Positions 14,413 to 64,000 of a DNA stretch of 64,000 bases are shown here, one piece after another. Location: the NCBI GenBank assembly GCA_903862935.1, contig CAIOZY010000036.1, forward strand, positions 1-64,000, given 5' to 3'. The position numbers were made by a program, and so were the translations under genes. The stretch comes from an uncultured Opitutaceae bacterium. GTDB taxonomy: Bacteria; Verrucomicrobiota; Verrucomicrobiia; Opitutales; Opitutaceae. Below the pieces are notes generated by a model. The model saw only the letters and a list, made by a program, of their open reading frames with translations. It did not search any database and was not told where the DNA came from. Position 1 is the first letter of the stretch; each line of letters begins with the position of its first letter.

Positions 14413-17151
14413 TTAAAGGCGCATGCCCCTTCCTTGGGCTTGAGAAGGAGTGGGTTCAGCCGCTAGGCGCCGTCGCCAGGCGGCTATCCGCTGGCCCTGC
14501 TGTTGCGCGCTTGTCCCGGCGTTGGCCCCTTCCACGGCAAGCGTCCGGTGCCCCTCGGATTCGATGGCGCGGCGAAGCGCCGCTTTGTCCGGCGTGAAAA
14601 TCAGGGCCCGGCGCCGGCCTCGCGAAATCGTCACATAAAACTGCTTCTGGTTAGTCGCTAGACGTGAGCCGGCATCCGAAAAGAGTACGGTGTCCACGGT
14701 CTTGCCCTGGCTTCCGTAGGACGTGGTGGCGTAACCGTAGTTGAATACCCGGTGATCGGCCCCGAGGGTCTTCCGCTGGCCCCGGTCGCTCTCGATCACG
14801 ATGCGCCCATCGGCTGCGACCTCACGAACCGTTGCAAGTTCGCCGTTGGCTAAGGGCCGGCCGTCCAGAGAACGGCCGTTCATCTTGAGTTGGATGCGGT
14901 CGCCCGGGGCCAGATCCAACGGCCTTTCCTCGACAAGATTGAGCCGGTCGGCGTACCGGTATGAAATGCGGGATCGGCGCCCGCTCTTCACAAGTGTGAT
15001 TCCCTGGGAATCGGCTCCTTGAACGCGGCAGATCTCACCGCGTTGATAGCGGCCGTAGTTTCGGAGGAAGACGACGGCTCCTGACTTGGGATAGCTGGAG
15101 GCATCCTGCTTCTCTGCCCCGGTCAGATCGACGGCCCGAAAGGTCGGCAAACGGGAACCGGGCCCCAACCGGCCGGCGGCGGCGAGGGCCGCCCGCACGG
15201 TGGAATTGACCGCTTCAACCTCATTCCAGGTCTGGGCCACAACCAGCGCTCGCTCCTTTCGCTCCAGGGCATCGAGGTAGTCCCGCGCCAATAGGCGGCG
15301 ACCTTCCCCGGGCGTCTGCTCGCGCACCCAGCCGAGGCCATCCAGGGCGTCAAGGGCTGCTGCCGGGCGCCCACGGGAGGCGAGGCGAACGGCGGATCGG
15401 TAGGCGGAAATCGCGCGCTTCTCGGCGCGGTCGCTGGAAAGCCGAGGGTCCTGGCGCCGGATGGATTTCAGCCGGGCGACCGGGACGCCGGAATAGCGCT
15501 CCAGAAGGACCAGTGCGTCCGAGGCTGCCACCGCTCCGTGCTGCCGGGTGTCGCCGGAGAGAATCAGGCGGGCTCGGTTTTCCCGGGAAAGGGTCACAAG
15601 CCGGTGCATGTCCCGAATACCGACTTGGCCGCTCTCGTCCAGGAGGACGACGGTGTTGGGTTCGAGGCGCGGATCAGCCAAAAACCTGGCCAGGGTATTC
15701 GCCGGAAGTCCGTCGCTTTCAAGGTCGAGGACCTGCTGACGCTGGGGTGCGAGGACTACGACCGGATGATTTGCGGCCAGGAGCCCTCGCTGGACCTCAC
15801 GGAGTGAGGTTGACTTGCCCGTTCCGGCCGCGCCGCGGAACAGGGTTATGAAAGACCGGCTCTGCATGATCTTGCCGACTGCCCGTCGCTGCTCCTCGGA
15901 TAGCCGCTCGTCGGGGGTGAAGGTTCCGTTTAGCGGCCGATCCCCGCGAACGCCCTTTCGGGCGATCATGTCTACCTCCATTTCCAGCCGGACCAGTTCC
16001 CGCGAGGTGACGGCTCCATGGTCGAGGAAGAAGACAGTCGGCATTCGTTTCAGGGCTTCGCGAAGCCCCGCCAAACTGAACGACTGCCCCCGGCCCCGGA
16101 CCAGCGCGGCGGCGAGCAGTTCATGCTGGGGCGCCACGGAACTCCGTTCGAAGACGTGCCGTTCGGCCCAGGCGAGCAGCTCGGCGGATTCCACGACGGG
16201 CGAAGGCGATAATGCTGCCGATTCGCGGAGGAATTGCAGCACCGTCCGTTCGTCCGGCGTCAACTGGCCCAGCCATGTTTTTCGGAGCCTCTCGGCCGTT
16301 GCCTCCTTGATTTTTCTCCGTCGCCGGTCATGGGCCACCTGTTCGCGAATGTCCTTCACATTGCCCCGAACATTCTGGTCCTCCACGCGCCTCTTGGTTT
16401 CCTCATCGATCTGTCGTTTCCGTTTGGAGAAACGGTCGATCACCTCACTCGAAATTCCTTCAATCTCGAAGTTTTTGCCGGTTGAGCGAATGCGATAGCC
16501 GAGCGCCCTCAGTTCCCGACAAAGCTCATGTTCATATACCCCGTTGGCGAACCGCTGGGCTTTGAACATGCCGTGGGTTTGAAGTGCCTTCCATCGGCTT
16601 TCCACCGGATCAAACGTGGCGTTAAAGACGACGCAATGGGTGTGGAGTTGGGGGTCGAGTTCCCGGCTGGTTTCATGCCGGAAGCAGGCGACTACCAGAT
16701 TGCCGGTTGAACGCACCTCGTCCTTGGCTCCATTGCGACGGACGCGCGTTTCGGCGAAGGTTTCAAGCTCCTGCAAGGTTGTCTGTACCGCCCGATTATG
16801 AGCCGCGATGATTCTCGGATCGTGGAGCAGCGCGACCAGAGAAACGCTCTTCGGTGGGCTCATGGTCCAGTCCTGAAAAATTCGTCGATTGGGGACCCAT
16901 TTGCCGTTTTCTTGCCGGATTGAATTACGGCGCACTCCCAGTCGGTTTCCCGTACCGGGATCGTTGCCTTCACAGAGCGCCGCAAACGCTTCTTCCGTCA
17001 CGTTTCCTGCGAGGTTAAGCCGAGCTGCACCTTGCCCGAACCACCGACCGACCTCGGCTTGTTTCTGGGAATAGTAGTCCCCCACCGCCAGGTGGGCTTT
17101 GAAATACTGCCGAGCCGCCGAAAGGGCGGTCTGGGTGAACGGGGAAATCAT
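14413..17151 (-). CDS. MobF-family conjugative relaxase-helicase (TrwC/TraI-like)
   Basis: The relaxase domain at the N terminus has the tyrosines expected for strand transfer (Y16 and Y26/Y27, in RQYFKAH and GDYYSQ) and the His motif HETSRELDPQLHTHCVVFN near 170-190. The helicase part has Walker A (FRGAAGTGKSTSL, near 440), Walker B (VVLLDESGQVG), and the late motifs YATTSYGSQGKT and YVTISRGRRR. Such proteins nick oriT and unwind the DNA for conjugation. The start at 17151 has an AAAGGA motif 7 bp upstream; a longer frame adds 74 non-conserved residues. At 912 residues it is close to TrwC. No other transfer genes are present, so this is a mobilisable or decayed element. Confidence 0.92.
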   Translation of the reverse strand: MISPFTQTALSAARQYFKAHLAVGDYYSQKQAEVGRWFGQGAARLNLAGNVTEEAFAALCEGNDPGTGNRLGVRRNSIRQENGKWVPNRRIFQDWTMSPPKSVSLVALLHDPRIIAAHNRAVQTTLQELETFAETRVRRNGAKDEVRSTGNLVVACFRHETSRELDPQLHTHCVVFNATFDPVESRWKALQTHGMFKAQRFANGVYEHELCRELRALGYRIRSTGKNFEIEGISSEVIDRFSKRKRQIDEETKRRVEDQNVRGNVKDIREQVAHDRRRRKIKEATAERLRKTWLGQLTPDERTVLQFLRESAALSPSPVVESAELLAWAERHVFERSSVAPQHELLAAALVRGRGQSFSLAGLREALKRMPTVFFLDHGAVTSRELVRLEMEVDMIARKGVRGDRPLNGTFTPDERLSEEQRRAVGKIMQSRSFITLFRGAAGTGKSTSLREVQRGLLAANHPVVVLAPQRQQVLDLESDGLPANTLARFLADPRLEPNTVVLLDESGQVGIRDMHRLVTLSRENRARLILSGDTRQHGAVAASDALVLLERYSGVPVARLKSIRRQDPRLSSDRAEKRAISAYRSAVRLASRGRPAAALDALDGLGWVREQTPGEGRRLLARDYLDALERKERALVVAQTWNEVEAVNSTVRAALAAAGRLGPGSRLPTFRAVDLTGAEKQDASSYPKSGAVVFLRNYGRYQRGEICRVQGADSQGITLVKSGRRSRISYRYADRLNLVEERPLDLAPGDRIQLKMNGRSLDGRPLANGELATVREVAADGRIVIESDRGQRKTLGADHRVFNYGYATTSYGSQGKTVDTVLFSDAGSRLATNQKQFYVTISRGRRRALIFTPDKAALRRAIESEGHRTLAVEGANAGTSAQQQGQRIAAWRRRLAAEPTPSQAQGRGMRL

Positions 17152-17190
17152 CGGAAATCCTTTCGCGAAGACCCGGAGACCCGGGCAGGG

Positions 17191-17212
17191 GGGAAACAAA
17201 GGTTTGTTTCCC
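17191..17212. other. Perfect inverted repeat upstream of the relaxase gene
   Basis: GGGAAACAAA and TTTGTTTCCC face each other across GG, 39 bp upstream of the relaxase start. MobF relaxases recognise inverted repeats beside their nic site, and their genes are often autoregulated from there. This could therefore be part of an oriT or an operator. No nic consensus can be confirmed by eye. Confidence 0.5.
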
Positions 17213-17740
17213 AATTTACGGCGACACGGAACCGCATGGGATCTTCGCCACGCGTGCTCCATGCCGTCCAAATCCCCTTGGGTTTTCGCCGTGCGGCTGC
17301 TGGGCCTCGAAGGGAATATACTCCACGTCGCTGATATCGATATTCTCGATGGAACGCCCATAATCGACATCAAGCCCTATGTGCCGGCTTTCGATTCCTT
17401 CGCAGCGGGAAGGATTGGGTGGTGCAGCCGCATTGCAGGCGGAGTAAAGGAAATCGCCGACGACCGTTTTGCAGGGCCATGACCACACCATCTGGTAAGA
17501 ATTCCGTACGCTGATGTGCTATTGGTTCTTGAACCAGGCTTGCGTTAGTTTGCGCCGGTGATGGGGCGATCGTCTGGCGTGTGCTGCAGCCAAGAGTGCT
17601 GCCGCGGAGGCCCTGTGCCAGAGCCGCGCAGGCAACTGCGCTGTTGTTCTTCTTAACAAAACCCAAAGTCGTTCCGGCAAATCCATGCGATCCATCCATA
17701 GGCGACAGGGTTCCCATCCTGATTTATACCTACTTGCGGT
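17213..17740. other. Non-coding stretch upstream of the relaxase
   Basis: Several short open frames (60-130 codons) cross this stretch on both strands but none has protein-like composition or a start signal. The relaxase promoter and possibly the rest of an oriT are expected here. No tRNA or direct repeat marking the element end was recognised. Confidence 0.4.
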
Positions 17741-51468: not shown

Positions 51469-52761
51469 TCAGTGCGTGATAAAAGCAGGATCGATCACCC
51501 GCTCCAACTGGGCCTGAAATTGAGCGAGAGGGGCGTCGAAATCAGTCTCGGAACCACTGCATCCGGGGATGAAAAGCGGCGCAATTGCCGGGGGTGACTG
51601 AATCGTCAACTTCTGGCTGGAACGCATTTGGTCGAGTGTCTGGGAAATGTAATAGGCGCGCACGAAATACCGTTGATCTGAAAGATGCTGCCACAATTCA
51701 AACACCAACGCTCCGCCGGGAAGGGTGGGACTATCTGGAAGGCCATCAACGCTCCATGACAAGCCGAGCAATCCGGACAGACTTGCGATATTTCCGTCAT
51801 GGCCCACCTCGACCACCAAACCCGTCCCCGGGGGCGCGAACGCGCCGCTCACCGGGCGACCGCTCGCCGTCTGTTCAAAACTGCGCAGCAGGTGTGCGGC
51901 GAGATTCGACGCGGAGACTTGGGCGACGTAGAATGTCCGCTGAATGAGGTCGAACTGCAGCGCGTGCAGGATATAGCAATCGGCCAGCCTTTCCCGGGTC
52001 ATCCTGCCCCATCCAACTTCCGGCTTCCCGTCCGCATACTCCAAAACGAAGTTTTCCACCAGTTCGGAGGCGACTCCAATGGGCGTGTTCGAATTAAGCA
52101 GCTTTTCCCCGTTTCCCGTCTGAATGGAGACAGGCAGGTCGAGGAGGGGCACCTTCCCCTTCGGCAGCGCACCGTCGGGCCGCCCGGACAGGATTTCGGC
52201 TAGGTCGTCGAATTGGCGTCGATAGGCCTGCTCGAAATGGGCCAGGTCCCCTCCGACGCGTCCACGAACCGCCGCCGCCGCCAACGCGTGATCGGGACGG
52301 CCCAGCTTCGCCAGCGCGGCGGCAAACAGCGGATCGATCTCGTCGGCGGGAAGGGTGTGGATTTCCACCTGGGCATCGCCCAGACAGCCCGCAGCGAGCG
52401 CCCGGGCTGTCTCCAGGGTCCGCTCCATGTTGTGGGCGCGGACATAGATCCGCGCGGCGTCATCCACGGGCCGTCCGGTCAACAGGCCCGCCTTCTGATA
52501 GCGCGCCCGGTAATACGCGCCCATCAGTATCATCAACTGCCTTCCGTGCGCGGTCAGAATGCCCGGACTCTCGGCCCACTTCGGCCAAGGCTGCGCGGCG
52601 TAATCTGACAGTTGCTCTGGGGACCGACTCGGTGTGCGCACGCCGTGACGGCTGATAATGACGGCCGAACGCAGGACAGCGTCCTCTTGCGCCGCGTTAG
52701 CGTGCTTCCAGAGGATAATTGCGACAAAGCAAATAGCGAAGCGTGGGATACGACCAGTCAT
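51469..52761 (-). CDS. Histidine acid phosphatase, AppA-type phytase
   Basis: The 430-residue protein has a signal peptide (MTGRIPRFAICFVAIILWKH, cleavage near ANA) and the two catalytic motifs of the histidine acid phosphatases: SRHGVRTPS (near 37-45, phosphohistidine) and HDGN (near 321, proton donor Asp). Flanking residues (PWPKWAESPGILTAHGRQL) follow E. coli AppA closely. AppA itself has HDTN and glucose-1-phosphatase HDSN, so HDGN is slightly unusual. It would act in the periplasm on phytate or sugar phosphates. The start at 52761 puts the signal peptide first; a longer frame adds 58 non-conserved residues. It sits beside the inositol regulator. Confidence 0.88.
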   Translation of the reverse strand: MTGRIPRFAICFVAIILWKHANAAQEDAVLRSAVIISRHGVRTPSRSPEQLSDYAAQPWPKWAESPGILTAHGRQLMILMGAYYRARYQKAGLLTGRPVDDAARIYVRAHNMERTLETARALAAGCLGDAQVEIHTLPADEIDPLFAAALAKLGRPDHALAAAAVRGRVGGDLAHFEQAYRRQFDDLAEILSGRPDGALPKGKVPLLDLPVSIQTGNGEKLLNSNTPIGVASELVENFVLEYADGKPEVGWGRMTRERLADCYILHALQFDLIQRTFYVAQVSASNLAAHLLRSFEQTASGRPVSGAFAPPGTGLVVEVGHDGNIASLSGLLGLSWSVDGLPDSPTLPGGALVFELWQHLSDQRYFVRAYYISQTLDQMRSSQKLTIQSPPAIAPLFIPGCSGSETDFDAPLAQFQAQLERVIDPAFITH

Positions 52762-53345
52762 GCATGCACAGGTTGCGGTCAGAAGCCTCCCTGGCAAGTG
52801 CTCTTGCCCAACGCATGCGATCTTCCATGGTTGGCCACGACGGGATGAACACGTGGCCGGAGCTGCAGCCATGGTCGTGGAAACAAGGCCTGGGCGCATA
52901 CGCGCAGCGCCGCGGTCCCCTCTCAGCGCGGGCACGGAGCACTTGCGCCAGCAGATCTCTCACGTTCCTAGCGACATATCAGCGGAAACATATCCAGCTT
53001 GCACCCGCGTGCGGAGCTAATCCACACAAGGATATGCGAGTTAGCCTCCTGCACCTCGTCGCTAGGCGCGAGACCGCGGCCCACTTGCTCGTGTATCCGC
53101 CGCCTTCTCAGGCGCACCTCGGCGAGTTCATTGACGCCAGCTGGGACGAAGCCCATATGAAGGACTGGGCCGCCGCGGCGGCGAAGATCCGGATCGTCGT
53201 TGAAGCCGGCATCTGCCACGACAGCAGCAAATAACCTCGCTGCTGTATTCTCCAAGCGCCGAGCTCATCAGTCCTCCATGGGGACGGCAGAGCCTGGGGG
53301 GCCGTCGGCCGCGGAAGCGACGGCGCTATCTTCAAGGCAAAGTAT
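52762..53345. other. Gene-poor junction between the inositol island and the accessory region
   Basis: Open frames on both strands exist, but their sequences are Arg/Ala-rich and lack motifs. The promoter of the acid phosphatase should lie near 52770-52850; no convincing boxes or LacI-type dyad were found there. Codon and base use change to a less biased pattern around 53340. Confidence 0.4.
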
Positions 53346-53642
53346 GTGGACGCGGCCGATCTAATGAAGACGTTGTTTGCTGCTACCGAAAGAGCGGGTG
53401 CGAACAACAGCCCCTATCGGTCAATCCTTCCGGAACATTTCGATGTGCTTTTCAAGGGCCTGCAGCGCGCCAAGGCTAACGGAAAAGTCTCTGTGCTTCA
53501 GGAACTCGCGTTCTCCAGCCGAGACCGGATTCTTAGGGTTGCAGCGCAGGCTGCTTTGGCTGGGCGGTCCGATTCGGCCGTGCATCCTGTGGCGGCCGTC
53601 ATGCTCAGCGGTGTAAGCCCAAGCAATCGATCCGCCTCATGA
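53346..53642 (+). CDS. Hypothetical protein, possibly 5'-truncated
   Basis: A GTG-started 98-codon frame gives a helical, soluble protein (ILPEHFDVLFKGLQRAKANG; VLQELAFSSRDRIL). The same frame stays open upstream (GAIFKAKYVDAADL), so the gene may be a fragment of a longer one. The stop overlaps the next start (ATGA), which argues that the frame is translated. No family recognised. Confidence 0.4.
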   Translation: MDAADLMKTLFAATERAGANNSPYRSILPEHFDVLFKGLQRAKANGKVSVLQELAFSSRDRILRVAAQAALAGRSDSAVHPVAAVMLSGVSPSNRSAS

Positions 53643-54583
53643 GCAGAAACCATTTGCAATCTCGGGATACAAGCACGGCTCGTTCGCGCGGCAGGATGCC
53701 CAATAGAAAGCAGGCAAGGACCTTTCACGCGGCACGCAGCCTATGGCGCGAACAGGATGAGCTCGATGCGCGTATCGAGGCCGAGGATGAAGAAGTCGAG
53801 GAGTGGGATCCCGAAGCTCCTGCAGCGGCAGACTCCGAGCCATCGATATTTGACTCGGAGATAGATCTGCGCGACGAGGATGAGGGCGCCGACGACGAGG
53901 TCGACCATAGCGACGATCTCGTCGAGACCTCGGCGTCAGTCTTGCTGCCGGTGCATCGTGGTCAGGTCCTCGTACAACCACCCGATTGGCATCTGGGGCG
54001 AAAGCCGAGCGATCGCCTTGAGGAGCGCTCTCTTCGGTTTGCCATGCTCAGCCGGCTGGCTAACTGGCTCAACAGCGAGCGACGTGAATTCCTCGCAGAG
54101 CCTGTTCCCGATCCCTATCTGCGCTTTTCTCAGGGAAAGACTGATCTCAATATGCCAGCACCGGTACTTGAGGAGGGTCTATATTCGCTGACGCGGTGTT
54201 CGGAAATGGGAGATTTCTCCACGTTCCACCGACACATGCGGCACGCCTTGCTTAAATGGCCGGACTTTCGACTTCCCCTTGTAGAACTTGTATCGCATCG
54301 AAGCCGAACTGCCTGGGTAGGGGCGGCAATACTCGATTTTTGCGTGAAGCGGAGAGTTGCCACTCGAACGTTCTGGAGTGAAGCGAAGGTGCCTAAGGGG
54401 AAAAACAGCGCCGCTTCCCGGAGCGTACTTCGGCGCATTCCACTAACCAATCCTTGGATGGCCACTCCAGAGGACTATGTCATTGCCGCTTGCCTTAAGG
54501 TGGGTGTCGGATTGGCTGCGGTAATGGCCTGTTATGGCGCGCTCTTTGGCCATTTTCAGCAGGAAGGTAGAGATGAGACCTAA
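53639..54583 (+). CDS. Hypothetical protein with acidic middle and C-terminal hydrophobic segment
   Basis: The 314-residue protein starts with a basic stretch (residues 1-30), then a strongly acidic region (EAEDEEVEEWDPE; DLRDEDEGADDEVDHSDD) to about residue 100, then a folded-looking helical part (RFAMLSRLANWLNSERREFL; LEEGLYSLTRCSEMG) and a hydrophobic segment near the end (VGVGLAAVMACYGALFG) that may cross the membrane. It is overlapped by its neighbours at both ends (ATGA before, 11 bp after), so the three genes form a tight unit with an AAA+ ATPase. No family was recognised. Confidence 0.6.
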   Translation: MSRNHLQSRDTSTARSRGRMPNRKQARTFHAARSLWREQDELDARIEAEDEEVEEWDPEAPAAADSEPSIFDSEIDLRDEDEGADDEVDHSDDLVETSASVLLPVHRGQVLVQPPDWHLGRKPSDRLEERSLRFAMLSRLANWLNSERREFLAEPVPDPYLRFSQGKTDLNMPAPVLEEGLYSLTRCSEMGDFSTFHRHMRHALLKWPDFRLPLVELVSHRSRTAWVGAAILDFCVKRRVATRTFWSEAKVPKGKNSAASRSVLRRIPLTNPWMATPEDYVIAACLKVGVGLAAVMACYGALFGHFQQEGRDET

Positions 54584-55628
54584 GCAGCAAAGTCGCGGCC
54601 AAATGATCACTATTGGTAAGGAAACGCCGGCTTGGGTTAGAAGTATCGTGGGTAACGACGAGACGTTGGCATCGAGTGGACTCTACTTCGTGTATTTGGG
54701 GGAAGATTTAGATTGGTCGGCTTATGTCGCTCAACATCCCATCATACCTTGGGCGAAGGACGCTGCCAACCTAGCCGTAGTTATTCTCTACGATCTTAAA
54801 CCGATCTCTGCTGAGGTGTTGGCGACTTGGCAGCGTGCAATTGACGGTTATGGTCTCAGGGCCTCGCGTATTTTGATTTCTCCATCTTGGCAAGTGGTGG
54901 AGGAAAGTCGCCTTGCCGACTGGCTACGGAACGAACTCGCACCTTTGGTCCGCTCCCCAGACACTGAACCCGAAACCGCCGGGTTGCGGGTGGGGCAGTA
55001 TGTGCGGCTTTCCGGTCTCGCTCGGCGTGAAGATGTCGAAAATGCGCTCCTCACGTTGAGTTTTGGAGAAATGCGCCGTGTTATCGAAGAGCTCGAGAGT
55101 TGGAGACGCCGGTATCTCTCATTGATTTCAATTGGCAGGCATGACCGGGAGGAGTTGATCAAGATCATCAGGATCGGGCATATGAAGCCTAACAGTACAA
55201 GCGAAGCCGAAAGTCAGATGGAACGCTTCAAGACCGACTTTCGTAAGAAATGCCAATCACTTGGAATCTCCCGAATCCATTCTAATTCAATCCCTAAGAT
55301 TTTGCTCACGGGCCCTACGGGTGTCGGCAAGACCTTGATCGCCCGGAATCTCGCACGCAGCCTAGCCGGTGAAGAGATTCCTTTCCAGCGTGTAGCGATG
55401 CCGGCTTTTTCAGGGGACGAGGCCAGTTTCGAGAATCAGATGTTCGGCGCAGTCGGCGGTAGCTACACGGGAGTTCCAGACTCCGGTCGGATTGGAATAT
55501 TCGCGAATCACATCGGCGGAGTTGGCCAAAGGCGCTCCCATCCCAGCGCCTCGCTGTCAGCCCTCACGGGAGATCCAATTTCGACGACCAAAGGTTGCTG
55601 CGGGCGCAGGAGCCGCTGGCCGGCATAA
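54573..55628 (+). pseudogene. AAA+ ATPase (sigma-54-activator-like) cut after the Walker A region
   Basis: A strong ribosome site (AGGAAGGT) precedes the ATG at 54573. The first about 235 residues are a unique N-terminal domain (WVRSIVGNDETLASSGLYFVYLGEDL). Then comes an AAA+ core: Walker A LLTGPTGVGKTLIARNLARSL (near 255), and a segment resembling the sigma-54-activator GAFTGA region (QMFGAVGGSYTGVPDSGRIG). Directly where Walker B (FLDEI) should follow, at about 55520, the sequence becomes unrelated and ends at 55628. The gene is therefore probably truncated by recombination. Confidence 0.6.
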
Positions 55629-55840
55629 AATGGGCCAAGCGGACGACCCAGGTCGAGACGATGCAAAAAACCATCCTTCAATCGAGCGACAGCCTTGAAT
55701 TTCGCCCCGGTTCCCCGTTCTACCTCGTGCACCGAGACCAGGAGCTTCATCCCTCGTCGGAGTTCTCCGATCCATGGGGACTCGGCAGCCATTCGGAAAT
55801 CATTTCCGTTAGTGATGCGGCTCGGGTGTCCTCCATAGCA
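55508..55840 (-). pseudogene. Unidentified gene fragment
   Basis: A minus-strand frame carries protein-like sequence (SRITNGNDFRMAAESPWIGE, then ELRRGMKLLVSVHEVERGTG and LKDGFLHRLDLGRPLGPFY), open from about 55840 to a stop at 55508. It meets the broken AAA+ gene tail to tail. No start codon with a ribosome site and no domain were recognised. Confidence 0.35.
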
Positions 55841-55842
55841 TT

Positions 55843-56300
55843 TTACTCCGAGCTAGTTATTCGCTCGCTGTAAGTTCTCAGCTTTTCGCAAAAACGGCCG
55901 GCTGCCTGCTCGAAGTGCGACCCATCCTCGAGAATGATATTGCCACTACACGCTTTCTTTAGATCGCCAAGGGCTCCATCCAGTATTTCGGGAGAATCGA
56001 AAATCGTAGCATTTTGCGCATCCAGGAGCCCGAGTAAATCGCTCATCCATTTTTTCTTGGCCTCAGACCTCACCTCATTACCACAAATCCCCTGAAGTAT
56101 GATCAAAAGCCGCATTAGTTCCGGCAACTGACTGCGACACTTCAACGAGCGAAAAGATTCGCTCAATGACTGTATCTCATTTTGTCCAAACACGCACAGT
56201 TGGGGATCACCCTTAAGTAACTCTAGATGTCTTAGGGCCTTTTCAAGGGCTTGGACTCGGAATGAGGGAAAAGGAGTCCGCCGGGAGAAACAGACGGTCT
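55843..56300 (-). pseudogene. C-terminal part of an unidentified helical protein
   Basis: About 145 codons give a coherent helical protein (VQALEKALRHLELLKGDPQL; SFRSLKCRSQLPELMRLLII; AAGRFCEKLRTYSERITSSE-stop). GC content is lower than in the neighbouring region. Upstream of about 56300 the frame runs on, but only antisense to a plus-strand gene fragment, so the true N terminus was lost at a junction near 56290-56330. Confidence 0.5.
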
Positions 56301-56329
56301 TTGAAGTCGTGATCGCTCGAAGCTCTAGG

Positions 56330-56985
56330 TCATCGATGGTTTCGGCAAATACGTCAACTATGCCGAGGTCTCGCAGGCCAATCTCTACGCTTCGTACATC
56401 GGCGCCAGGGAATGGCTCCTTTCGCAGCTCATCGCCGACCCGACCTCGTGGAGTCCGCCGCCGAGCTTCCTTAGCCAAGGGGACACCCTGCCGATCTTCC
56501 CGAACTTCGCCCTCGGGCATACCCGCATGGTCGGGATCGATGTGTCGCCGGGTTCCAGCGGGAATCAGGTCCTTACCCTGTTCAAGGCGAGTAGTGAGTT
56601 CCTGACGACGAGCGATCTGCCCTTTGGAACCGCGAATACGGTCTTTATCACCGGCGTTGCCTATCAGGACGCCAATTCCAACGGGGTCTACGATCCCGGG
56701 GAGGGCATCTCCGGCGTGACCGTGACGCCCAGCAAGGGGGACTGGCATGCGGTCACGTCCACCTCCGGAGGCTACGCCATCCCGGTGCCGGCCAATTCCG
56801 GAACCTATACCCTGACGGCCACGGGAGGGCCGTTGAATGGCGCGACGGCCACCGTGACCGTGGGTGCCGACAGCGTGAAGGCTGACTGGGTTCTGCCGGC
56901 AGCCGCCGTCGCGCTGCCGCCCCAGGTGCCCGTCGCAGCATCGGACGGCAGTACCCAGTTAGCCGTCCAGCTCGCCTTTGAGGTA
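56330..56985 (+). pseudogene. Fragment of a secreted protein with an SdrD-like B repeat
   Basis: The frame starts abruptly after a stop (about 56325) with FGKYVNYAEVSQANLYASYI and runs through a region with FALGHTRMVGIDVSPGSSGN into an SdrD B-like module (GVAYQDANSNGVYDPGEGIS; VTSTSGGYAIPVPANSGTY). After about 56985 the sequence becomes antisense to a SIR2-like gene start. Both ends are therefore cut, and no start or secretion signal remains. Confidence 0.55.
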
Positions 56986-57201
56986 AAGCAAGAATCCCTG
57001 AGCCCGTCGCCCAGTATCCAGAAACATCGGATCGGTACCGGCAGGCGCCGGAACGAAGATCCTTCCGGTTTCCCGCAATTGCTCGCTTAAGACGCGCCGA
57101 GTGATGTTCCCCACAGTCCCAACGCCAGGGCCGAACGGCTTGTAAGAGTCGAAGGAGATGCCAGAACCGAAAAAGAAGGCGACTGTTGTAGGGAAACTCA
57201 T
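56959..57201 (-). pseudogene. N-terminal fragment of a SIR2-like protein
   Basis: The fragment has 80 codons and starts MSFPTTVAFFFGSGIS, the NAD-binding GxG opening of SIR2-family (defence-type) proteins, followed by GTVGNITRRVLSEQLRE as in the SIR2_2 group. It ends in a stop created at the junction with the SdrD-like fragment. Complete SIR2 defence proteins (NADases) are several hundred residues long, so this one is inactive. Confidence 0.5.
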
Positions 57202-57557
57202 TTTGCGACGCCGGTACGGCAGGGTAAATCATGCCAGCGCATTGCGTGAGACTGGGCTCTGTGGGCCGTTCCGGCAAGCCGTAGACTCGGCAATAAAGCA
57301 TGGCACAGAAGTGGTCCTGTAAGTTCGCTACTACCCCGCACGCTGCCCGATTTTGCCACGCCGCCAAGGTATTGCTCGGCTTCGCCTGCGCTCCACCTCT
57401 TCGCGGCCTTAACCGGCCTTCCCCCTCGGGCGGAGCCGTGCCGGCTCCGCTCTCGGCGGCCTGGGCCGTGGCATGGCGTGCCCTCACGGGCCCAGCGCGC
57501 GAGGCGCACCTCGACAACCGGGCATCGACGCCCGAGCGGGGAGCGCATCCGCGCCTG
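57202..57557. other. GC-rich stretch upstream of radC
   Basis: No gene supported. A perfect 9-bp stem (GCGGAGCCG / CGGCTCCGC, 57430-57450) with a 3-base loop is the main structure. Frames read through from here into radC, but their sequences are Arg/Ala/Pro-rich and not conserved. Confidence 0.4.
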
Positions 57558-58310
57558 ATGCACATGAATCAAGGCACGCTGGACCTCAAACTTAGAGACT
57601 ATGCTCCATCCGAGAACCGCCTGCGGGCGACTGCTTGCAACGAAAGGCCGCAGCAGCGGCTCGAAAACTTCGGAGTCTCGGCCCTCAGTGACACCGAGCT
57701 GCTCGCAATTCTGCTCAGGAGCGGCACCCGGGGACACGATGTCCTGACCCTCGCATCGCGACTCATGGTTGAAGCCGGCTCAATTGCACGGCTGGCATCC
57801 TGGCACTTGACCGACTTTCAGCGGCTTAAGGGTATAGGCCGCATCAAGGCGCAACAGCTTGTCGCGATCATGGAGATCGCCCGGCGAGCGATGAGCACTT
57901 CCAATGGCGAGCAGCCGATCCTCAATCGAGCCGAGCTGATCGCCAGCTACTTGAATCCAGTGGCCGTGGGTCTCGATATCGAGAAGTTCTGGGTGCTATG
58001 CCTGAATCGGAAGAACCGGCTGATTAAGCGGGTGGAAGTGACCTCGGGAACGGCAACCGCCGCATTGGCCCATCCTCGGGAGGTCTTTAGGGTCGCTATT
58101 CGGGAGTCCTCCAGCGCGATAGTCTGCGCCCACAATCATCCGAGCGGGGATTGCGCCCCTTCCAGCGCGGATGTCCAATTGACCCGCCTACTCCGGGAAG
58201 CGGCGAGGACGGTTGAGATCGACCTCCTTGACCACGTAATTGTAGGTCGAGCCTCGGCAGACCCGCTCGGGAAGGGATGGTACAGTTTCCGGGAGTCGGG
58301 CCTCATTTGA
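57558..58310 (+). CDS. radC: RadC family protein (JAB/MPN domain)
   Basis: From the ATG at 57558 the protein has 250 residues: an N-terminal HhH-like region (RPQQRLENFGVSALSDTELLAILLRSG; LKGIGRIKAQQLVAIMEIARR) and the C-terminal JAB metal site (SAIVCAHNHPSGDCAPSSAD) with the HxH and Asp ligands. RadC proteins are common on mobile and defence islands; despite the name, a repair role is not established. The second ATG at 57564 is also possible. The stop codon falls inside an 18-bp tandem repeat. Confidence 0.88.
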   Translation: MHMNQGTLDLKLRDYAPSENRLRATACNERPQQRLENFGVSALSDTELLAILLRSGTRGHDVLTLASRLMVEAGSIARLASWHLTDFQRLKGIGRIKAQQLVAIMEIARRAMSTSNGEQPILNRAELIASYLNPVAVGLDIEKFWVLCLNRKNRLIKRVEVTSGTATAALAHPREVFRVAIRESSSAIVCAHNHPSGDCAPSSADVQLTRLLREAARTVEIDLLDHVIVGRASADPLGKGWYSFRESGLI

Positions 58311-58328
58311 GAGTCGGACCTCATTTGA
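58293..58328 (+). repeat. 18-bp tandem repeat at the radC stop
   Basis: Two units, GAGTCGGGCCTCATTTGA and GAGTCGGACCTCATTTGA, differ in one base. The first contains the radC stop codon and the second repeats it. A third degenerate copy may follow (58340-58357). Confidence 0.7.
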
Positions 58329-58415
58329 GGTCGTCAGCCCTCACTCGAAATTGGGGGACGATCTGAGGCTATTCTCCCCCTATTTCGCATCGCTCGGTCG
58401 CGCGATAATTCGCGC

Positions 58416-58667
58416 ATGGAAACCAATGAATTCACCAGTTCCGTCATCGTCGATGACGTTTGTCAGGCAGCATCCTCGCTCAGTGAGAAACTTACCTACT
58501 CGGTTGCCGAAGCGGCTTCTATCTTGGGGGTGTCTAGGCCCTCGATCTACCGGCTCATGGCGCGTCGGGTTCTCATCCCGATTCCTGGTCTTCGGAACAA
58601 GCGGCTTCCGAAGAAACAGGTCCGCCGGTTGGCGGACGGCTTCATCCGACTTCCGAGTCGTGACTAA
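58416..58667 (+). CDS. Small HTH protein, excisionase/AlpA-like
   Basis: The 83-residue protein has a winged HTH of the HTH_17 type: LTYSVAEAASILGVSRPSIYRLMARRVLIP, then GLRNKRLPKKQVRRLADGF. Such small proteins act as excisionases or regulators on integrated elements. It lies between radC and a second HTH gene. Confidence 0.75.
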   Translation: METNEFTSSVIVDDVCQAASSLSEKLTYSVAEAASILGVSRPSIYRLMARRVLIPIPGLRNKRLPKKQVRRLADGFIRLPSRD

Positions 58668-58689
58668 AGCGGTCCCGCTCTGTCCCCCC

Positions 58690-59049
58690 ATGAATACGAC
58701 GAGTAAGGCAATCTTGGAAACTCTACTCAGTACAGACGCCTCCCTTTCGATTGATGAACGAGGGTCGGTCGAGCGGCTCATTTCAGGAAAGTCCGATTTG
58801 TCCGACGCTCGCAAGGTCGGCGGCACTGAACGACTGCTCATTACGCAGAGAGAGGTCAGCGCTCTGTTGAGCGTCAGTCGCATCACAATCTGGAGAATGA
58901 CAAGAGACGGCGCTTTGAATCCGGTCGAAGTTTTGCCGGGTACTTGGCGTTACCGCTACGGGGAAGTAGCAGCTATAGCCTCTGGCGACTCGTTGCTCGG
59001 CCGAAAGCACCGCCAATCGGCCCTGCGTCGTTTGAAATCGGTGGCCTAG
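58690..59049 (+). CDS. Second HTH protein, excisionase-like
   Basis: The 119-residue protein has an N-terminal helical part and a HTH_17-like domain (LITQREVSALLSVSRITIWRMTRDGALNPV, then WRYRYGEVAAIAS). It begins 22 bp after the preceding HTH gene, and the two are only distantly alike, so they may act as a pair. A longer frame would overlap the first HTH gene and is not supported. Confidence 0.7.
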   Translation: MNTTSKAILETLLSTDASLSIDERGSVERLISGKSDLSDARKVGGTERLLITQREVSALLSVSRITIWRMTRDGALNPVEVLPGTWRYRYGEVAAIASGDSLLGRKHRQSALRRLKSVA

Positions 59050-59183
59050 ACTGCTCACGAAGTCCTCGAACAAGTTCCAGGCTTTGTGCGATTGTTGACG
59101 GATCACAATCGCAGCTATATTTTTTCCGCTTCTGGCAGAGGATAGCCGGGGAGCACGTCGGTACTCAACGCCAGCAGAGGCCC

Positions 59184-61265
59184 ATGCAAAACTATGATAA
59201 TGATGAGGTGACCTTTCGTTCACTCGTAGATGGGGTCCGTCCCTCGATACCTAAGGAGATTTCGGACCTAGGGGAAATTTACGCACATCTTGGGATGAAG
59301 GCCGGCAACACACTCTCGCTACGAGAAATTAGTGATCATCTCCTTGGCCAGATTCGCTCGGTGTTCGAACGAGCAACGGATGGTAAAGCCGGCGGCACCG
59401 ACCTCCAGGTAGTCAAGCACCAGCTTCTAATAAGGCATTTTGCCGACGGAACTCCTATTCAGCCGTACGATGTATTCCTTGAGACGATTCGGGATGCAAC
59501 GCGTCAGAATCAGTGGAAGGCTCCTCCGCTATCCAACAAAGAAGCGTGGAGGACGGCACTCGCGAGTGCCGCTATTCACGACCAACTCTATAACGGTAGC
59601 TTGCGCCATAGCACCGACTTGCTGCGCAAATTTCATTCGCGCCAAGTCGCGATTGCCGAAGCGGTGAAGTACCTTCGCAGCCTTGGGTACGATGCTGCCA
59701 TTCACGGCGGTCGGGTGCAGATCTCGGAATCAATTCAAGAAGCCATTGCTCGGCGGATCGAAAGTGGAGTTAAACGCGCGGGCGGATTGAATGTGGCTTC
59801 GAACATCTTCAACGCCTTGGCCGCAAGTTACGATCCGGCAATCGAGCGCTATCATGTGGCGCGCCAAGCCGATACCGTTGGGAAAACCCGCGATCCTGGT
59901 GTCCCATGGGCGTTCCTCCTCAATATCTGCGTTAAGCACCTGGACGCCTCTGTCAGGGACCCCTCAAAGCAGCGGGAAGCGTGCGAAGAGGCGGTTAAGC
60001 TCGCGCAGGCTTTTGCCGCGACGTTCGACATCGAGCCCTACAATATTTTCGAAGTACTCTTCCGGGCCGGTGAGCCACTACCGCGGCTCCTTCAGGAGCT
60101 TACTCTCTTCGATGGAATGTTCACGCTCCTCCAGGGGCGACCCAGCACGGTGGCTTCGGTCTTACGTGGCCTTTTTAGTTGGGTCGACGACGCTATTGCT
60201 CGGAAGATCCTTGGGGCCAGCATCGATCAGATAGCACTTGTCGCGGAGGCGGTGCTTCATTTGCCCGGCTCTCCACATACTCCGTTCGTTTTTACTCCGG
60301 ATGCTATCAAGATTCCTGGCTTGACTGGGGTTGCTCTCAACCAAGTGCTGAATGCCTTTTGCCATCAGGCGGCCCCGAACCAGAGTTATCTTCTACCTCA
60401 CGATCAAACCAAGGTAGATTTCTGGTTCCGGCCACTCGTTCAAACTCCATCCGGACATTACATACTGCTGAACCGTTCGTGGTGTGCTCCTGCCCTCTAT
60501 GAGGCGGTCGCTGCTGCGCTTCGTCCTTTTGTACGGAATTTCGATGGCAGCGTCGGTATCGCCTTTGAGGTATACGTCCGAAGAGAGTTGGCTGCCCATG
60601 GAATCCATGTGAAATCGGGGATCTACCAGGTTGGCGGCACGACGGGCGAGTGCGACGCTGTCGTCGAAACGGACGATTTGATCATCTTCCTTGAGTTCAA
60701 GCGAAAGACTCTGTGCCGCACTTCTCGGTCGGGACAGGATGTCACGATTTTTGTCGATCTCTCAGACAGCTTGCTTGCCGCAATGGAACAAATGGCGGGA
60801 CATGAGCTCGTGCTGTGCCAGCAGGGGTACCTCGATCTCAACTGCAAAGGAGTGACTGAACGTGTAGAATGGCGAAATCGTTCGGTTGAGCGGGTGGCGC
60901 TTAGCCTCCTTGATTTTGGAGCACTCCAGTCCCGGGCGATCGTCTCTCAAATCATGCAGACGGTTCAGCACGCTCAGATCAGCGCTAAATCGCCGGAGTA
61001 CGCGAAGCAACTCGCGAAGGTTCAAAATCGAATTAAAGCACTCGCTCAATTGGAAAACCAACTTTCGCTCCATCGCCCACGTGCCGCAGGGCCGCCCTTT
61101 ATGAATTGCTGGTTCATAAACCTTGGTCACCTCGCCATGCTCCTCGACGGAGTGACATCGAATCGAGCCTTCAAGGACTCGCTCCTGGCAACACGCCATC
61201 TAATGACCGGCTCGCTCGATCTGTCTCTCGATCACCGTTACAAACAGTCGCTGAGCAATCAATGA
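59184..61265 (+). CDS. Large uncharacterised protein with a PD-(D/E)XK-like nuclease site
   Basis: The 693-residue protein has a long helical N-terminal two thirds without recognised domains (SLREISDHLLGQIRSVFERA; LRHSTDLLRKFHSRQVAIA). Near residues 465-535 it has a restriction-endonuclease-like pattern: IAFEVYVRRELAAHGI, GECDAVVETDDLIIFLEFKRK, that is an early Glu, then D-AVVE and ExK spaced as in PD-(D/E)XK enzymes. It might cut DNA in a defence or mobile-element setting. The start at 59184 is the first ATG after the HTH gene; a longer frame overlaps that gene. Confidence 0.6.
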   Translation: MQNYDNDEVTFRSLVDGVRPSIPKEISDLGEIYAHLGMKAGNTLSLREISDHLLGQIRSVFERATDGKAGGTDLQVVKHQLLIRHFADGTPIQPYDVFLETIRDATRQNQWKAPPLSNKEAWRTALASAAIHDQLYNGSLRHSTDLLRKFHSRQVAIAEAVKYLRSLGYDAAIHGGRVQISESIQEAIARRIESGVKRAGGLNVASNIFNALAASYDPAIERYHVARQADTVGKTRDPGVPWAFLLNICVKHLDASVRDPSKQREACEEAVKLAQAFAATFDIEPYNIFEVLFRAGEPLPRLLQELTLFDGMFTLLQGRPSTVASVLRGLFSWVDDAIARKILGASIDQIALVAEAVLHLPGSPHTPFVFTPDAIKIPGLTGVALNQVLNAFCHQAAPNQSYLLPHDQTKVDFWFRPLVQTPSGHYILLNRSWCAPALYEAVAAALRPFVRNFDGSVGIAFEVYVRRELAAHGIHVKSGIYQVGGTTGECDAVVETDDLIIFLEFKRKTLCRTSRSGQDVTIFVDLSDSLLAAMEQMAGHELVLCQQGYLDLNCKGVTERVEWRNRSVERVALSLLDFGALQSRAIVSQIMQTVQHAQISAKSPEYAKQLAKVQNRIKALAQLENQLSLHRPRAAGPPFMNCWFINLGHLAMLLDGVTSNRAFKDSLLATRHLMTGSLDLSLDHRYKQSLSNQ

Positions 61266-61276
61266 AACCTGGTCAC

Positions 61277-62938
61277 TTAGCGTTTTTCTGGGTCCCATTC
61301 CTCGTCCGGCAAGAATACACTGCCCAGTTCCCGCAGTGCGCTGAGCGCTGAGGTGAAGAGGCTAGCCGCAACTTCCTTGAGTTCCTTGTTCTCAAGGTCG
61401 AAGGTCTTGGCCACTTTCTTGTACTTACTGCCCTTGCGATGGGCGACACCGGTCGAACGCAGGTCCTGAAGGTCGCGAAGAAAATGGATGATAGCCGACG
61501 CATTCTTTACCTTGTTGGCGTTTAAGTAGGCCTCGAATTTGGAGATGCCCTTCGTCTCAGGCGGAAGCGAAAGGCCCTTGGCCAGTTCGACCTCGTTAAG
61601 GGAATCGATGACTAGTTTGGTCAGCGATTGCACTTGGCCGTCGAATTCGCCCTGATCGTTATGGATTGGGATGCGCAGTGTTGTGAAATGGTGCGCGTCG
61701 TCTTCTGCCAGCGGAAGAAAGAGGTCCCAGCCGTGTTTAGCCTTCCACTTCTCGGAAAAGAATCGGAAAAGGTTCTTGAATGCGAGATCTGGACGGCCCG
61801 GATCGGCAAACCTGCCACGGATGCTGCGGGTGAAGGCAGTTTTGCTCAGCGGGGGGCCGTCCGGAAGAACGTTGAAGCTGCGCCAGTAGGGCCGCTCAGG
61901 TTCGGGCAGATCGCGACCTAGGTCGCCGAGGAAAACGACCACGCGGTCGCCGTGGTCGTTGTCCATCTTTAGGCCCCACTTGCTGCCCGCACGCAGGTAG
62001 CCGTCCTCGACCGAGTAGCGTTCGGAATGGCTATAGTACTTCCCGAGCACGTCGGCGCGGAAATGCACGGGCGTGAGATAGTTCGGTGCGTCCGGATTGG
62101 CTCCGAAATTATTTTTTAGCTTCGTGTGATCGCAGGTGAATTCGACGTCGTGACCTTGCTCATCACGCCCAATGATAAAGGTCGGATATTTTTCGCCCGC
62201 TGCGTCCTTGTACGGCCAAAAGCCGGATTCTTCTTTGGGCAGCGGAGCGAGGAGCTTCTTGCCGCAGAAGTAGGCGTGTGTGCGATATGGTTTCCGGAAG
62301 TCGCAGTCCCGGACGCCCCAGTGAAAGGAATGGTCGGATTCGCGAACGATTCGCTCGTGCTCCTCGTCGGCGAGTTTCTCCAGCGGCGCTTCCGAATAGC
62401 GGTTGATGTCGAGCTGGATCGAAAGGTGCATGTTTTTAATAGCGAGAAATTGCCGGATTTCCTTCGTCCGGACTTCCACCCGCGTTGGCAGGATCCGCGC
62501 CACCACCTCCGGATTACCAGCCTCGTCGTCCTTGATGAACTCCTCGCGCTTCTTGCCTTGGTAAAGATTGTGAAAATGGCGGAATTCCTCAGAAATTTCG
62601 CGGAAGCTTTCGGGTCCGGTGTGGAAACTTCGGCAAAATATCAGCGGTTCCACTCCCCCGAGAAAGCCATATTGATCATAGCTCACTTTCGCGCTTTTGC
62701 CGTGGCCGGATTGCGAGGTTCCTGGCATCCCGCTTCCTGCCTGTAAATCCCAGCAGTGATCTTCGAGCGCTTTCTTCACCTGTTCGTCTGGAATGAGGGC
62801 GCTGTAGATGAGGCCGTCCTCCTGTATGCTTTCGATCTGGCCGTAGACCGTCTGCCACGCCTCGCCGGCTAGATTCGCCGCGAAGAATTGGCGCCAGCCG
62901 TCAAACCTGAGAAATTCAATGGAACCGGGCGTGTCCAT
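61277..62938 (-). CDS. Uncharacterised protein with a C-terminal HEPN-like motif
   Basis: The 553-residue protein is soluble and has a unique N-terminal part (SIEFLRFDGWRQFFAANLAG) resembling the ligand-sensing beta regions of ApeA-type proteins. Near its C terminus IIHFLRDLQDLRSTGVAHRKG contains an Rx5H pattern in a helical context, as in HEPN ribonucleases. Many HEPN proteins with such long N-terminal domains act in abortive defence. The start at 62938 (MDTPGS) was chosen because the residues before it are not conserved in character. It is convergent with the nuclease-like gene (11 bp apart). Confidence 0.55.
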   Translation of the reverse strand: MDTPGSIEFLRFDGWRQFFAANLAGEAWQTVYGQIESIQEDGLIYSALIPDEQVKKALEDHCWDLQAGSGMPGTSQSGHGKSAKVSYDQYGFLGGVEPLIFCRSFHTGPESFREISEEFRHFHNLYQGKKREEFIKDDEAGNPEVVARILPTRVEVRTKEIRQFLAIKNMHLSIQLDINRYSEAPLEKLADEEHERIVRESDHSFHWGVRDCDFRKPYRTHAYFCGKKLLAPLPKEESGFWPYKDAAGEKYPTFIIGRDEQGHDVEFTCDHTKLKNNFGANPDAPNYLTPVHFRADVLGKYYSHSERYSVEDGYLRAGSKWGLKMDNDHGDRVVVFLGDLGRDLPEPERPYWRSFNVLPDGPPLSKTAFTRSIRGRFADPGRPDLAFKNLFRFFSEKWKAKHGWDLFLPLAEDDAHHFTTLRIPIHNDQGEFDGQVQSLTKLVIDSLNEVELAKGLSLPPETKGISKFEAYLNANKVKNASAIIHFLRDLQDLRSTGVAHRKGSKYKKVAKTFDLENKELKEVAASLFTSALSALRELGSVFLPDEEWDPEKR

Positions 62939-63324
62939 AATGCGAACTGGAGTACACAGGCATTCGTAGTTCCGGGCAATCCTGAGCGGTGCCGAACCAG
63001 AATTGGGCGAGCTACCTAAATCATCGCTTATCATCGCGGAACGGAGATGTGGTTTACTCCGACCCTATCGCAAGACGCGTAAGCGGGGGCCAGAACCAGC
63101 GGTTCACGATTCGAGCTGGGACTCGATCATTGAAATGCCCCCGAGAGGTCCTGGAGGGGGAAGGCAATTTCGGGCGATTTCTATCGGCTGGGGCTAACCA
63201 ACTACCTCTCTCTCGAAGACTACGTCCTGAACTACGTCACCGCTTTCACGAAGTTGCCCCAAGTTGCCTGATGTTTCATTTCCAAAACTGCGTCAGATGG
63301 ACTTTCGCAACCCCCTGAAAACAA
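62939..63324. other. Intergenic stretch between the HEPN-like gene and tRNA-Met
   Basis: No gene was recognised. The promoter of the minus-strand HEPN-like gene must lie in its left part. Short plus-strand frames lack protein-like composition. Confidence 0.4.
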
Positions 63325-63352
63325 GAAACCTCCAGAGGTTTCTGGAGGTTTC
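63325..63352 (-). terminator. Intrinsic terminator of the tRNA-Met gene
   Basis: GAAACCTCCAGA and TCTGGAGGTTTC form a perfect 12-bp stem around a 4-base loop, 4 bp after the tRNA CCA end on the minus strand. It is followed there by TTGTTTTC, a T-rich tail that supports rho-independent termination. Confidence 0.85.
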
Positions 63353-63356
63353 AAAT

Positions 63357-63433
<77 letters not shown>

Positions 63434-63544
63434 ATAAAGGAAGGGTGAACGTTGGCACTCCCTCGGTCCCTGTCAATGGGTTTTCCGGCGGATGACGGCG
63501 CGCGGCTGCCCCGGTCCATGCCCAGCCCCTTCTCGGGGCTCAAC

Positions 63545-63573
63545 TTCCCTCCAAAACGCTTCCCTCCAAAACG
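63545..63573 (+). repeat. 14-bp direct repeat upstream of rplM
   Basis: TTCCCTCCAAAACG occurs twice, 15 bp apart in period. A TTGACA box at 63578-63583 follows, with no good -10 at 16-18 bp. The repeats may be part of the rplM control region or a small duplication. Confidence 0.5.
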
Positions 63574-63620
63574 AGGGTTGACACCCCTTCCCAAAAGCCT
63601 AGCTGTTAACCCCTTTTCCC

Positions 63621-64000
63621 ATGAAAACTTTCCTCGCCAAGAAGGAGACGGTGAAGCCCAATTGGTATCTTATTGATGCCGAAGGCCAGGTGCTGGGCCG
63701 TCTCGCGGTCAAGGCGGCCAACATTATCCGCGGACGCCACCGGCCGACCTACACCCCCCATGTGGACACCGGGGACTTCGTCGTGATCATCAACGCCGAC
63801 AAGGTCGTCCTGACCGGCAAGAAAGAGGAGCAGAATGAGTACATGTTCTTCTCCGGCTTTGTAGGCGGGGAGAGCGTCCGCAGCATCAAGTTAATGCGGG
63901 AGCACAACCCGGCCTTCATCATCAAGCACGCCGTCAAGGGGATGCTGCCGAAGAACCGGATCGCGGCCAAGATGCTCACAAAGCTCAAGGTCTTCGCCGG
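63621..64000 (+). CDS. rplM: 50S ribosomal protein L13, 3' end outside the window
   Basis: The first 126 residues match L13: MKTFLAKKETVKPNWYLID, DAEGQVLGRLAVKAANIIRG, TPHVDTGDFVVIINADKV, and AVKGMLPKNRIAAKML. It binds 23S rRNA early in 50S assembly. rpsI (S9) usually follows and would be beyond the edge. The gene is cut by the end of the window; no ribosome site is obvious before the ATG. Confidence 0.96.
   Translation, partial: MKTFLAKKETVKPNWYLIDAEGQVLGRLAVKAANIIRGRHRPTYTPHVDTGDFVVIINADKVVLTGKKEEQNEYMFFSGFVGGESVRSIKLMREHNPAFIIKHAVKGMLPKNRIAAKMLTKLKVFA

Follow-up and report, generated by a model that had tools for sequence, protein, structure and literature searches.

Cut gene pieces beside an accessory radC with a conserved, structured leader: probable decayed cargo of a defence and mobile-gene hotspot in an Opitutaceae genome

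How did cut pieces of unrelated genes come to lie end to end in less than 4 kb of a bacterial contig? The question is raised by a patch at 53346–57201 of the window analyzed here, a stretch of 64,000 nucleotides (positions 1–64000 of contig C36, genome G000) from the draft genome of an uncultured Opitutaceae bacterium (3.35 Mb, 62 contigs). The first-pass annotation of the patch took it for a recombination hotspot with defence-type pieces and took its front operon for a new defence-type system, intact elsewhere. The hotspot part of this claim is supported, mostly by the setting to the right of the patch: an accessory radC behind a structured leader, a combination with known defence genes nearby in 7 of the 10 loci counted, and two plasmid-type open reading frames (ORFs) of 773 and 585 aa. 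The new system is unsupported. Because defence genes are often found close to copies of this radC leader in related bacteria, we read the patch as probable remains of cargo, decayed on one side of a radC-linked defence and mobile-gene hotspot.

The breaks that had been placed at about 55520, 56310, and 56985 are real as sequence, with the third shifted to ~56962, some 23 bp to the left of 56985, where the SdrD-like alignment ends. At the first break the AAA+ gene, here called A3, is truncated: its Walker-A segment fits positions 23 to 95 of the 168 in the Pfam model Sigma54_activat (E = 3.4e-9), and the fit stops at residue 316, at ~55520. The SdrD-like piece is cut at both ends, as first described. 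It aligns with the middle third of intact genes in its own genome (L018, on C24), in G574 (L087), and in G553 (L088), whose open frames of 672, 689, and 684 codons, respectively, continue on either side, with a DNA identity of 68 to 71% across the aligning parts. The co-linearity is that of an internal piece, and the SdrD_B model itself scores 23.5 bits, beneath its cut-off of 29.7. The pieces also differ in G+C content, which is 0.49 in the − strand piece and 0.64 in the SdrD-like piece.

Joins of this kind could be artefacts of assembly or amplification, in which case the pieces would not lie together in the cell. The draft state of the genome, the presence in 1.5 kb of three joins that each bring unrelated sequences together, and the fact that no match from the 149 other genomes of the family crosses any of them would fit such an origin. 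We nevertheless consider it very improbable, as the contig runs on through the radC locus with the leader-to-gene layout common to relatives and the genome lacks near-identical repeats at the joins. When the 6 kb at 52900–58900 were searched against their own genome, only the stretch itself and two paralogues at 67 to 68% identity (radC and the SdrD-like gene) were found, and therefore no near-identical repeat explains the joins. A 19-bp imperfect repeat at 55556 and 58333 was judged by eye to be due to chance.

When 150 family genomes were searched at the DNA level, the ~230 bp in front of radC, immediately to the right of the patch, proved to be conserved in some relatives; matches in G536, G543, G553, and G595 also start inside this leader. 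Its identity to nine loci is 72 to 78% in local blastn alignments and 63 to 69% when the leader is compared in full and gaps are included. By these figures its conservation does not clearly exceed that of radC, but the alignments stop at a sharp 5′ edge, past which nothing aligns. A covariance model was built from nine copies trimmed by script at the start codon. In a class-wide scan with strict filters and eight candidates scored per genome, the model found copies in 5 of 276 genomes at E ≤ 0.01, all of them in the same family and one of them (G365, E = 0.0096) marginal. On a set of 30 loci it gave 16 matches, including two antisense chance matches (20.7 and 19.1 bits).

For the structure, we aligned 13 copies (the window, L076, L077, L080–L082, L084–L086, L101, L102, L104, and L105), setting aside the two antisense matches, the 53-bit copy of L103, and that of L083, whose leader is identical to that of L085. 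RNAalifold, run on a plain MAFFT alignment of these copies, gave 47 pairs, with 94.4% of the cells pairing. Double changes occur in 18 of the 47 pairs, against 6.0 (standard deviation, 1.7) in shuffled alignments and 3 to 6 in structures slid along the alignment, and none of 500 shuffles scored as high as the leader on any measure. These statistics are supports and not probabilities, since the shuffles take no account of relatedness and the alignment tested is also the one that yielded the structure. Folding of single copies was unremarkable, with z values of −1.50 and −1.55 for two of them. The leader has no Rfam match at E ≤ 1, the scan of 50–64 kb returning nothing except the tRNA and, on that tRNA, a single match below threshold; it was not found by one plasmid search or by one exact pattern scan of viral contigs; and we met no description of a radC leader RNA in the literature searched, the coverage of which lies mainly outside subscription journals. 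The leader is thus probably a new structured element. Coding on its antisense strand was considered and judged unlikely because the copies differ by one-base gaps.

Whether the element folds as RNA is a separate matter. Among its pairs there are 24 G-U cells versus 14 C-A cells, or 15 versus 12 when one pair is left out, and since G-U cells exceed C-A cells only modestly, both the strand and the molecule are left undecided by this measure. That modest excess, together with the relaxases and recombinases near the element, would suit a leader working as folded single-stranded DNA, for example, as a transfer-linked promoter or a recombination site. We regard this as unlikely, given that the element reaches the next start codon, as a 5′ leader would, that the four copies found by the model end in ATG just as the nine trimmed ones do, that the G+C content of the 13 copies is 68 to 75%, and that a promoter scan found no site near.

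Ten of the 13 copies stand before a long radC ORF and one before a radC cut by a contig end. The remaining two are those of L077, where ~28 radC codons follow, and L101, where another ORF does. The leader-like copies at L101 (7251–7461, 109 bits) and L103 (5436–5632, 53 bits) both precede ORFs other than radC, and the element is therefore not tied to radC alone. At L077 (2401–4952), two genes of the phage integrase family lie past the 5′ edge of the leader, another broken join at a like site. We also observed a hairpin-like segment of 41 to 45 bp, ~93% identical between copies, which lies at 57354–57401 of the window and occurs alone at L078 (2320–2362) and L079 (2614–2654); possibly this is a dispersed repeat of which the window's leader includes a copy.

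The company kept by leader and radC in relatives is rich in defence genes. Our count covers ten loci, L076 and L083 being omitted for contig ends, L077 for its cut radC, and L101 and L103 because radC does not follow their leader. Proteins tested singly against PADLOC revealed known defence genes within ~4 kb in seven of the ten. These are an SNF2 helicase of the BrxHI/HmaA/DrmD type at L080, AbiEii at L081, a SIR2 protein preceded by a short pAgo at L082 (929–6256), both upstream of leader and radC, with DruA downstream, AbiEi/AbiEii at L084, BrxC at L085, BrxC with BrxA at L086, and AbiEii with a TIR protein at L104. Mobility genes are present too, with a TrwC relaxase at three loci (L080, L086, and, just past 4 kb, L084) and a serine recombinase at L105. 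A TrwC-type relaxase of the same Pfam family is encoded at 14413–17373 on the window's own contig.

A scan of the neighbours as unpicked sets points the same way. At E ≤ 1e-12, the 39 neighbours of the ten loci match 84 PADLOC families, and the control, 59 genes neighbouring 12 radC genes that lack the leader, matches a single family, DrmC (6 members); as PADLOC families overlap and the scan does not say which member matched, these are counts of families and not of genes. The DrmC matches perhaps reflect a household phospholipase-D-type protein. None of the 12 control stretches carries the leader, the best score being 12.8 bits. In a tree of 28 RadC sequences, 9 of the 11 leader-bearing RadCs, two of these nine being near-copies, are set apart by a modestly supported branch (92/95).

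If this setting explains the patch, what were the pieces? At the left end stand three + strand ORFs, A1, A2, and A3, which overlap by 4 and 11 bp (with A3 taken from the ATG at 54573), bearing out the earlier description of three overlapping genes leading into an AAA+ protein. ORFs were compared with the Pfam, PADLOC, NCBIfam, and PHROG profile libraries. No model in these libraries matched A2, and A1 matched nothing in the libraries or in plasmids, the two places searched for it. Searches of the order (176 other genomes), of plasmids (72,556 records), and, by peptide patterns, of the sets genome_contigs and viral_contigs yielded no accepted relative of A2. The sole match to A2 outside its own genome (G094, E = 6.5e-5) was dropped as a low-complexity acidic ORF region containing stops. 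Just left of the patch, at 52743–53234, a + frame is open, and its codon use slightly resembles that of coding sequence; it has no Pfam match and is possibly a further gene piece.

A3 was sought with its AAA part in the class sample, by its N-terminal domain in the phylum sample, and in plasmids, phages, and pattern scans of the same two contig sets. The N-terminal domain had no relative in 287 other genomes of the phylum, and the pattern scans yielded no confirmed homologue. With the AAA part included, A3 has matches at E ≤ 1e-5 in 67 of 384 class genomes, its own among them, mainly in the P-loop half, where a 68-bp DNA match at 81% identity was also found in G563. The annotated matches listed from plasmids and phages are ordinary activators, and a Salmonella match was set aside as a PrpR-type regulator amid metabolic genes. 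The gene had been described as an AAA+ ATPase cut after a GAFTGA-like segment. The truncation holds; the label is loose. A GAFTGA loop is the motif of sigma-54 activators (bEBP), and A3, which has their Walker-A P-loop in a Sigma54_activat domain, reads GGSYTGV at the loop. Against the full-length RtcR model it scores 28.4 bits, far beneath the cut-off of 650. The Walker B segment, the arginine finger, and the C-terminal helix-turn-helix of such activators would fall past the cut at ~55520.

A possible, somewhat doubtful reading takes A1-A2-A3 for the first half of a conflict system not described before, in which A2 and A1 would sense or dock and A3 would be the AAA+ machine, its C-terminal effector or DNA-binding half now lost. 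Three overlapping orphan ORFs that end in an AAA+ domain beside plasmid-type cargo are what such a system might leave, and the P-loop of A3 weakly matches those of PADLOC RtcR and PDC-M37B (E = 2.8e-6). Yet no effector domain and no intact homologue were found (for A2 and A3 in broad samples, for A1 in plasmids only), the matches of A3 lie mostly in its P-loop half, and structure models made without alignments were too poor to use, with a mean pLDDT (predicted local distance difference test) of 44.4 for A2 and 39.0 for A3. The search for intact homologues of the genes starting at 53639 and 54573 that the first-pass annotation had proposed was thus empty in the sampled genomes and plasmids. The idea of A1-A2-A3 as a new defence system with intact copies elsewhere is neither demonstrated nor refuted; the genomes, plasmids, and patterns searched for A2 and for the N-terminal domain of A3, which are samples, give it no support.

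Between the first two breaks had been read two fragments lacking identity, and we found no accepted relatives for either piece in the sets searched. A codon scan trained on 15 genes of the window favours the + frame over 55520–55880 and the − frame over most of 55880–56300, with scores near zero over 55.5–56.3 kb and therefore weakly; on codon use, two gene ends that converge on each other are the best reading of the stretch. The + piece had no match in plasmids or Pfam, the two places searched, and the alternative − frame at 55834–55520 had one weak match outside its own genome (G548, E = 8.7e-4). The − strand piece had none in plasmids, in patterns of viral_contigs, or in 239 other genomes of the phylum. 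For the last piece of the patch the label SIR2-like is not confirmed: the 80-codon ORF at 57201–56963 has no Pfam match at E ≤ 1, no NCBIfam or PADLOC match at 0.1, and no Protein Data Bank (PDB) chain at E ≤ 10, which for so short a piece is weak evidence, and 8 of 22 residues at its N-terminus agree with those of a genuine SIR2-type protein from a relative.

Another reading of the pieces is simple decay of the chromosome, in which random fragments unrelated to defence would have filled a gap tolerated between core genes. The SdrD-like fragment, whose parent gene is native to the family, would suit this, and it is the one piece to which the housekeeping origin named in the first-pass annotation as an objection applies; nor does the patch itself hold an accepted PADLOC gene. 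But the setting adjoins leader, radC, and plasmid-type cargo, and A2, the N-terminal domain of A3, and the − strand piece lack relatives in the order and phylum samples, as foreign DNA would, so we consider decay of this sort quite unlikely. The features on both sides of radC are collected in Table 1.

Table 1. Features of the patch and of the stretch to its right (window positions)
Feature	Positions	Strand	Basis or remark
A1, family not recognised	53346–53642	+	ORF list; frame open upstream to 53235, 5′ end may be cut
A2, 314 aa, N-terminal third acidic, orphan	53639–54583	+	ORF list and homology searches
A3, orphan N-terminal domain (~235 aa) and start of sigma54-activator-type AAA+ domain, cut at ~55520	54573–55520	+	
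C-terminal piece of + strand gene without assigned family	55520–55873	+	Weak codon scan; alternative, − frame 55834–55520
C-terminal piece of − strand gene without assigned family, converging on + piece	55843–56310	−	ORF list, codon scan
Internal piece of native SdrD-B-like extracellular-protein gene	~56341–~56962	+	Co-linear with three intact genes
First ~79 codons of gene without assigned family, SIR2-like by one motif	56963–57201	−	ORF list
Leader ("E") of accessory radC, 234 nt, conserved and structured	57333–57566	+	Reaches radC start codon
Accessory radC, full-length ORF	57564–58310	+	Paralogue at C15, same genome
Small excisionase-like helix-turn-helix protein	58416–58667	+	Profile libraries; weak PADLOC mad1 match, E = 5.3e-6
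773-aa ORF, true start uncertain	58944–61265	+	Relatives in 14 plasmid records, 12 typed conjugative
585-aa ORF	61277–63034	−	Relatives in 11 plasmid records
Right edge of variable stretch	63217–63434		95% identity to congener from 63217 through tRNA-Met; left of it unrelated
tRNA-Met (CAT)	63357–63433	−	
Core gene start	63567–64000	+	Beside tRNA-Met in one congener too

The two large ORFs beyond radC have relatives on plasmids. Near the plasmid relatives of the 773-aa ORF lie a JAB/ThiF pair and a WYL gene in Xanthomonas and an AbiEii gene in Alteromonas. The best plasmid relative of the 585-aa ORF stands directly after gmtY-VPA1269-gmtX on the Pseudomonas plasmid pPma4326F, and a second plasmid neighbourhood, in Rhodococcus, holds a toxin-antitoxin pair. 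The core gene at the right end we take to be that of ribosomal protein L13. Far from these features, at 259–1629, lies a long tandem array of ~45/90-bp repeats that encodes an alanine/threonine-rich stretch and is followed by what are presumably exopolysaccharide export genes.

Several observations weigh against reading the patch as cargo of a radC-linked hotspot. The ten ORFs scanned at 53.3–63.0 kb include no integrase, and a direct repeat of the tRNA end such as an att site would give was not found either; these are the two marks of a tRNA-integrated element that were looked for. As the flank at 50.1–53.3 kb, compared with 12 congeners, is shared only as short matches in five, neither the left edge nor an empty site was found; tRNA-Met adjoins the L13-type gene in one of the eight congener loci compared. 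The PADLOC scan of the ten ORFs gave weak matches only, those of the A3 P-loop and the helix-turn-helix protein, and no accepted defence gene lies near the window's own leader. The same holds for L105, where three of four neighbours were tested singly with no PADLOC match, and for L102, where three were tested and the only match, of a regulator-like protein to the cyclase domain of PycC (E = 2.3e-13), was not counted. The RadCs of the window and of G603 group with leaderless RadCs in the tree. The proteins tested singly were picked after inspection, two of the ten in the first batch matching nothing, and the two neighbour sets compared differ in size and span, with the leaderless radC genes possibly having a conserved chromosomal setting.

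The hotspot interpretation would run as follows. Cargo gained and lost repeatedly, with illegitimate joining, has probably left at least four unrelated cut pieces at ~53.3–57.2 kb, one of them from a family-native gene, and the accessory radC module (folded leader and radC) and the two plasmid-type cargo genes nearer tRNA-Met are uninterrupted ORFs. The cuts in the AAA+ and SdrD-like genes, the conservation and covariation of the leader, and the many defence genes around leader and radC in relatives are established, and the history is inferred from them. Cargo turnover would have made the joins, A1-A2-A3 would have been defence cargo, and RadC or the leader might take part in the turnover. Going further, we tentatively propose, with slightly less than even confidence, that the leader represents an undescribed class of structured nucleic acid of ~225 nt and seven helices that travels with accessory radC, marks defence and mobile-gene hotspots in the family, and influences either the expression of radC or the way in which incoming or integrating DNA is handled, the mosaic being debris of that turnover. 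Taken by itself, the patch is ordinary wreckage from which little can be learned about mechanism. Should leader and radC reliably flag defence hotspots, they would be a handle for new systems in a little-studied group, and a folded leader would give the RadC of mobile elements, a puzzling family, a testable regulatory or mechanistic partner.

Among known systems, the position of the 585-aa relative on pPma4326F recalls the gamma-mobile-trio elements, reportedly the subject of work by Mahata and colleagues in 2024. A3 resembles the sigma-54 activators RtcR, PrpR, and NtrC in its Walker-A region and the next ~75 residues, but differs in having GGSYTGV in place of GAFTGA, in its cut domain, and in that neither a CARF nor a receiver domain was found. 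The RadC/JAB domain is known from conjugative elements, where it has been suggested to process nucleic acids (PMC5512222); the RadC described here shares this domain but is a stand-alone protein with a conserved leader, a feature not mentioned in that paper's passages on RadC. The closest likeness in organization is to the defence islands and the hotspots bounded by core genes or tRNAs in E. coli and Pseudomonas. As in those, the loci of relatives carry varied cargo, with BREX, Druantia, pAgo, AbiE, and TIR genes beside mobility genes. They differ in the marker, which at these loci is an accessory radC preceded by a folded leader, and in the state of the cargo in the window, where it is broken and orphan.

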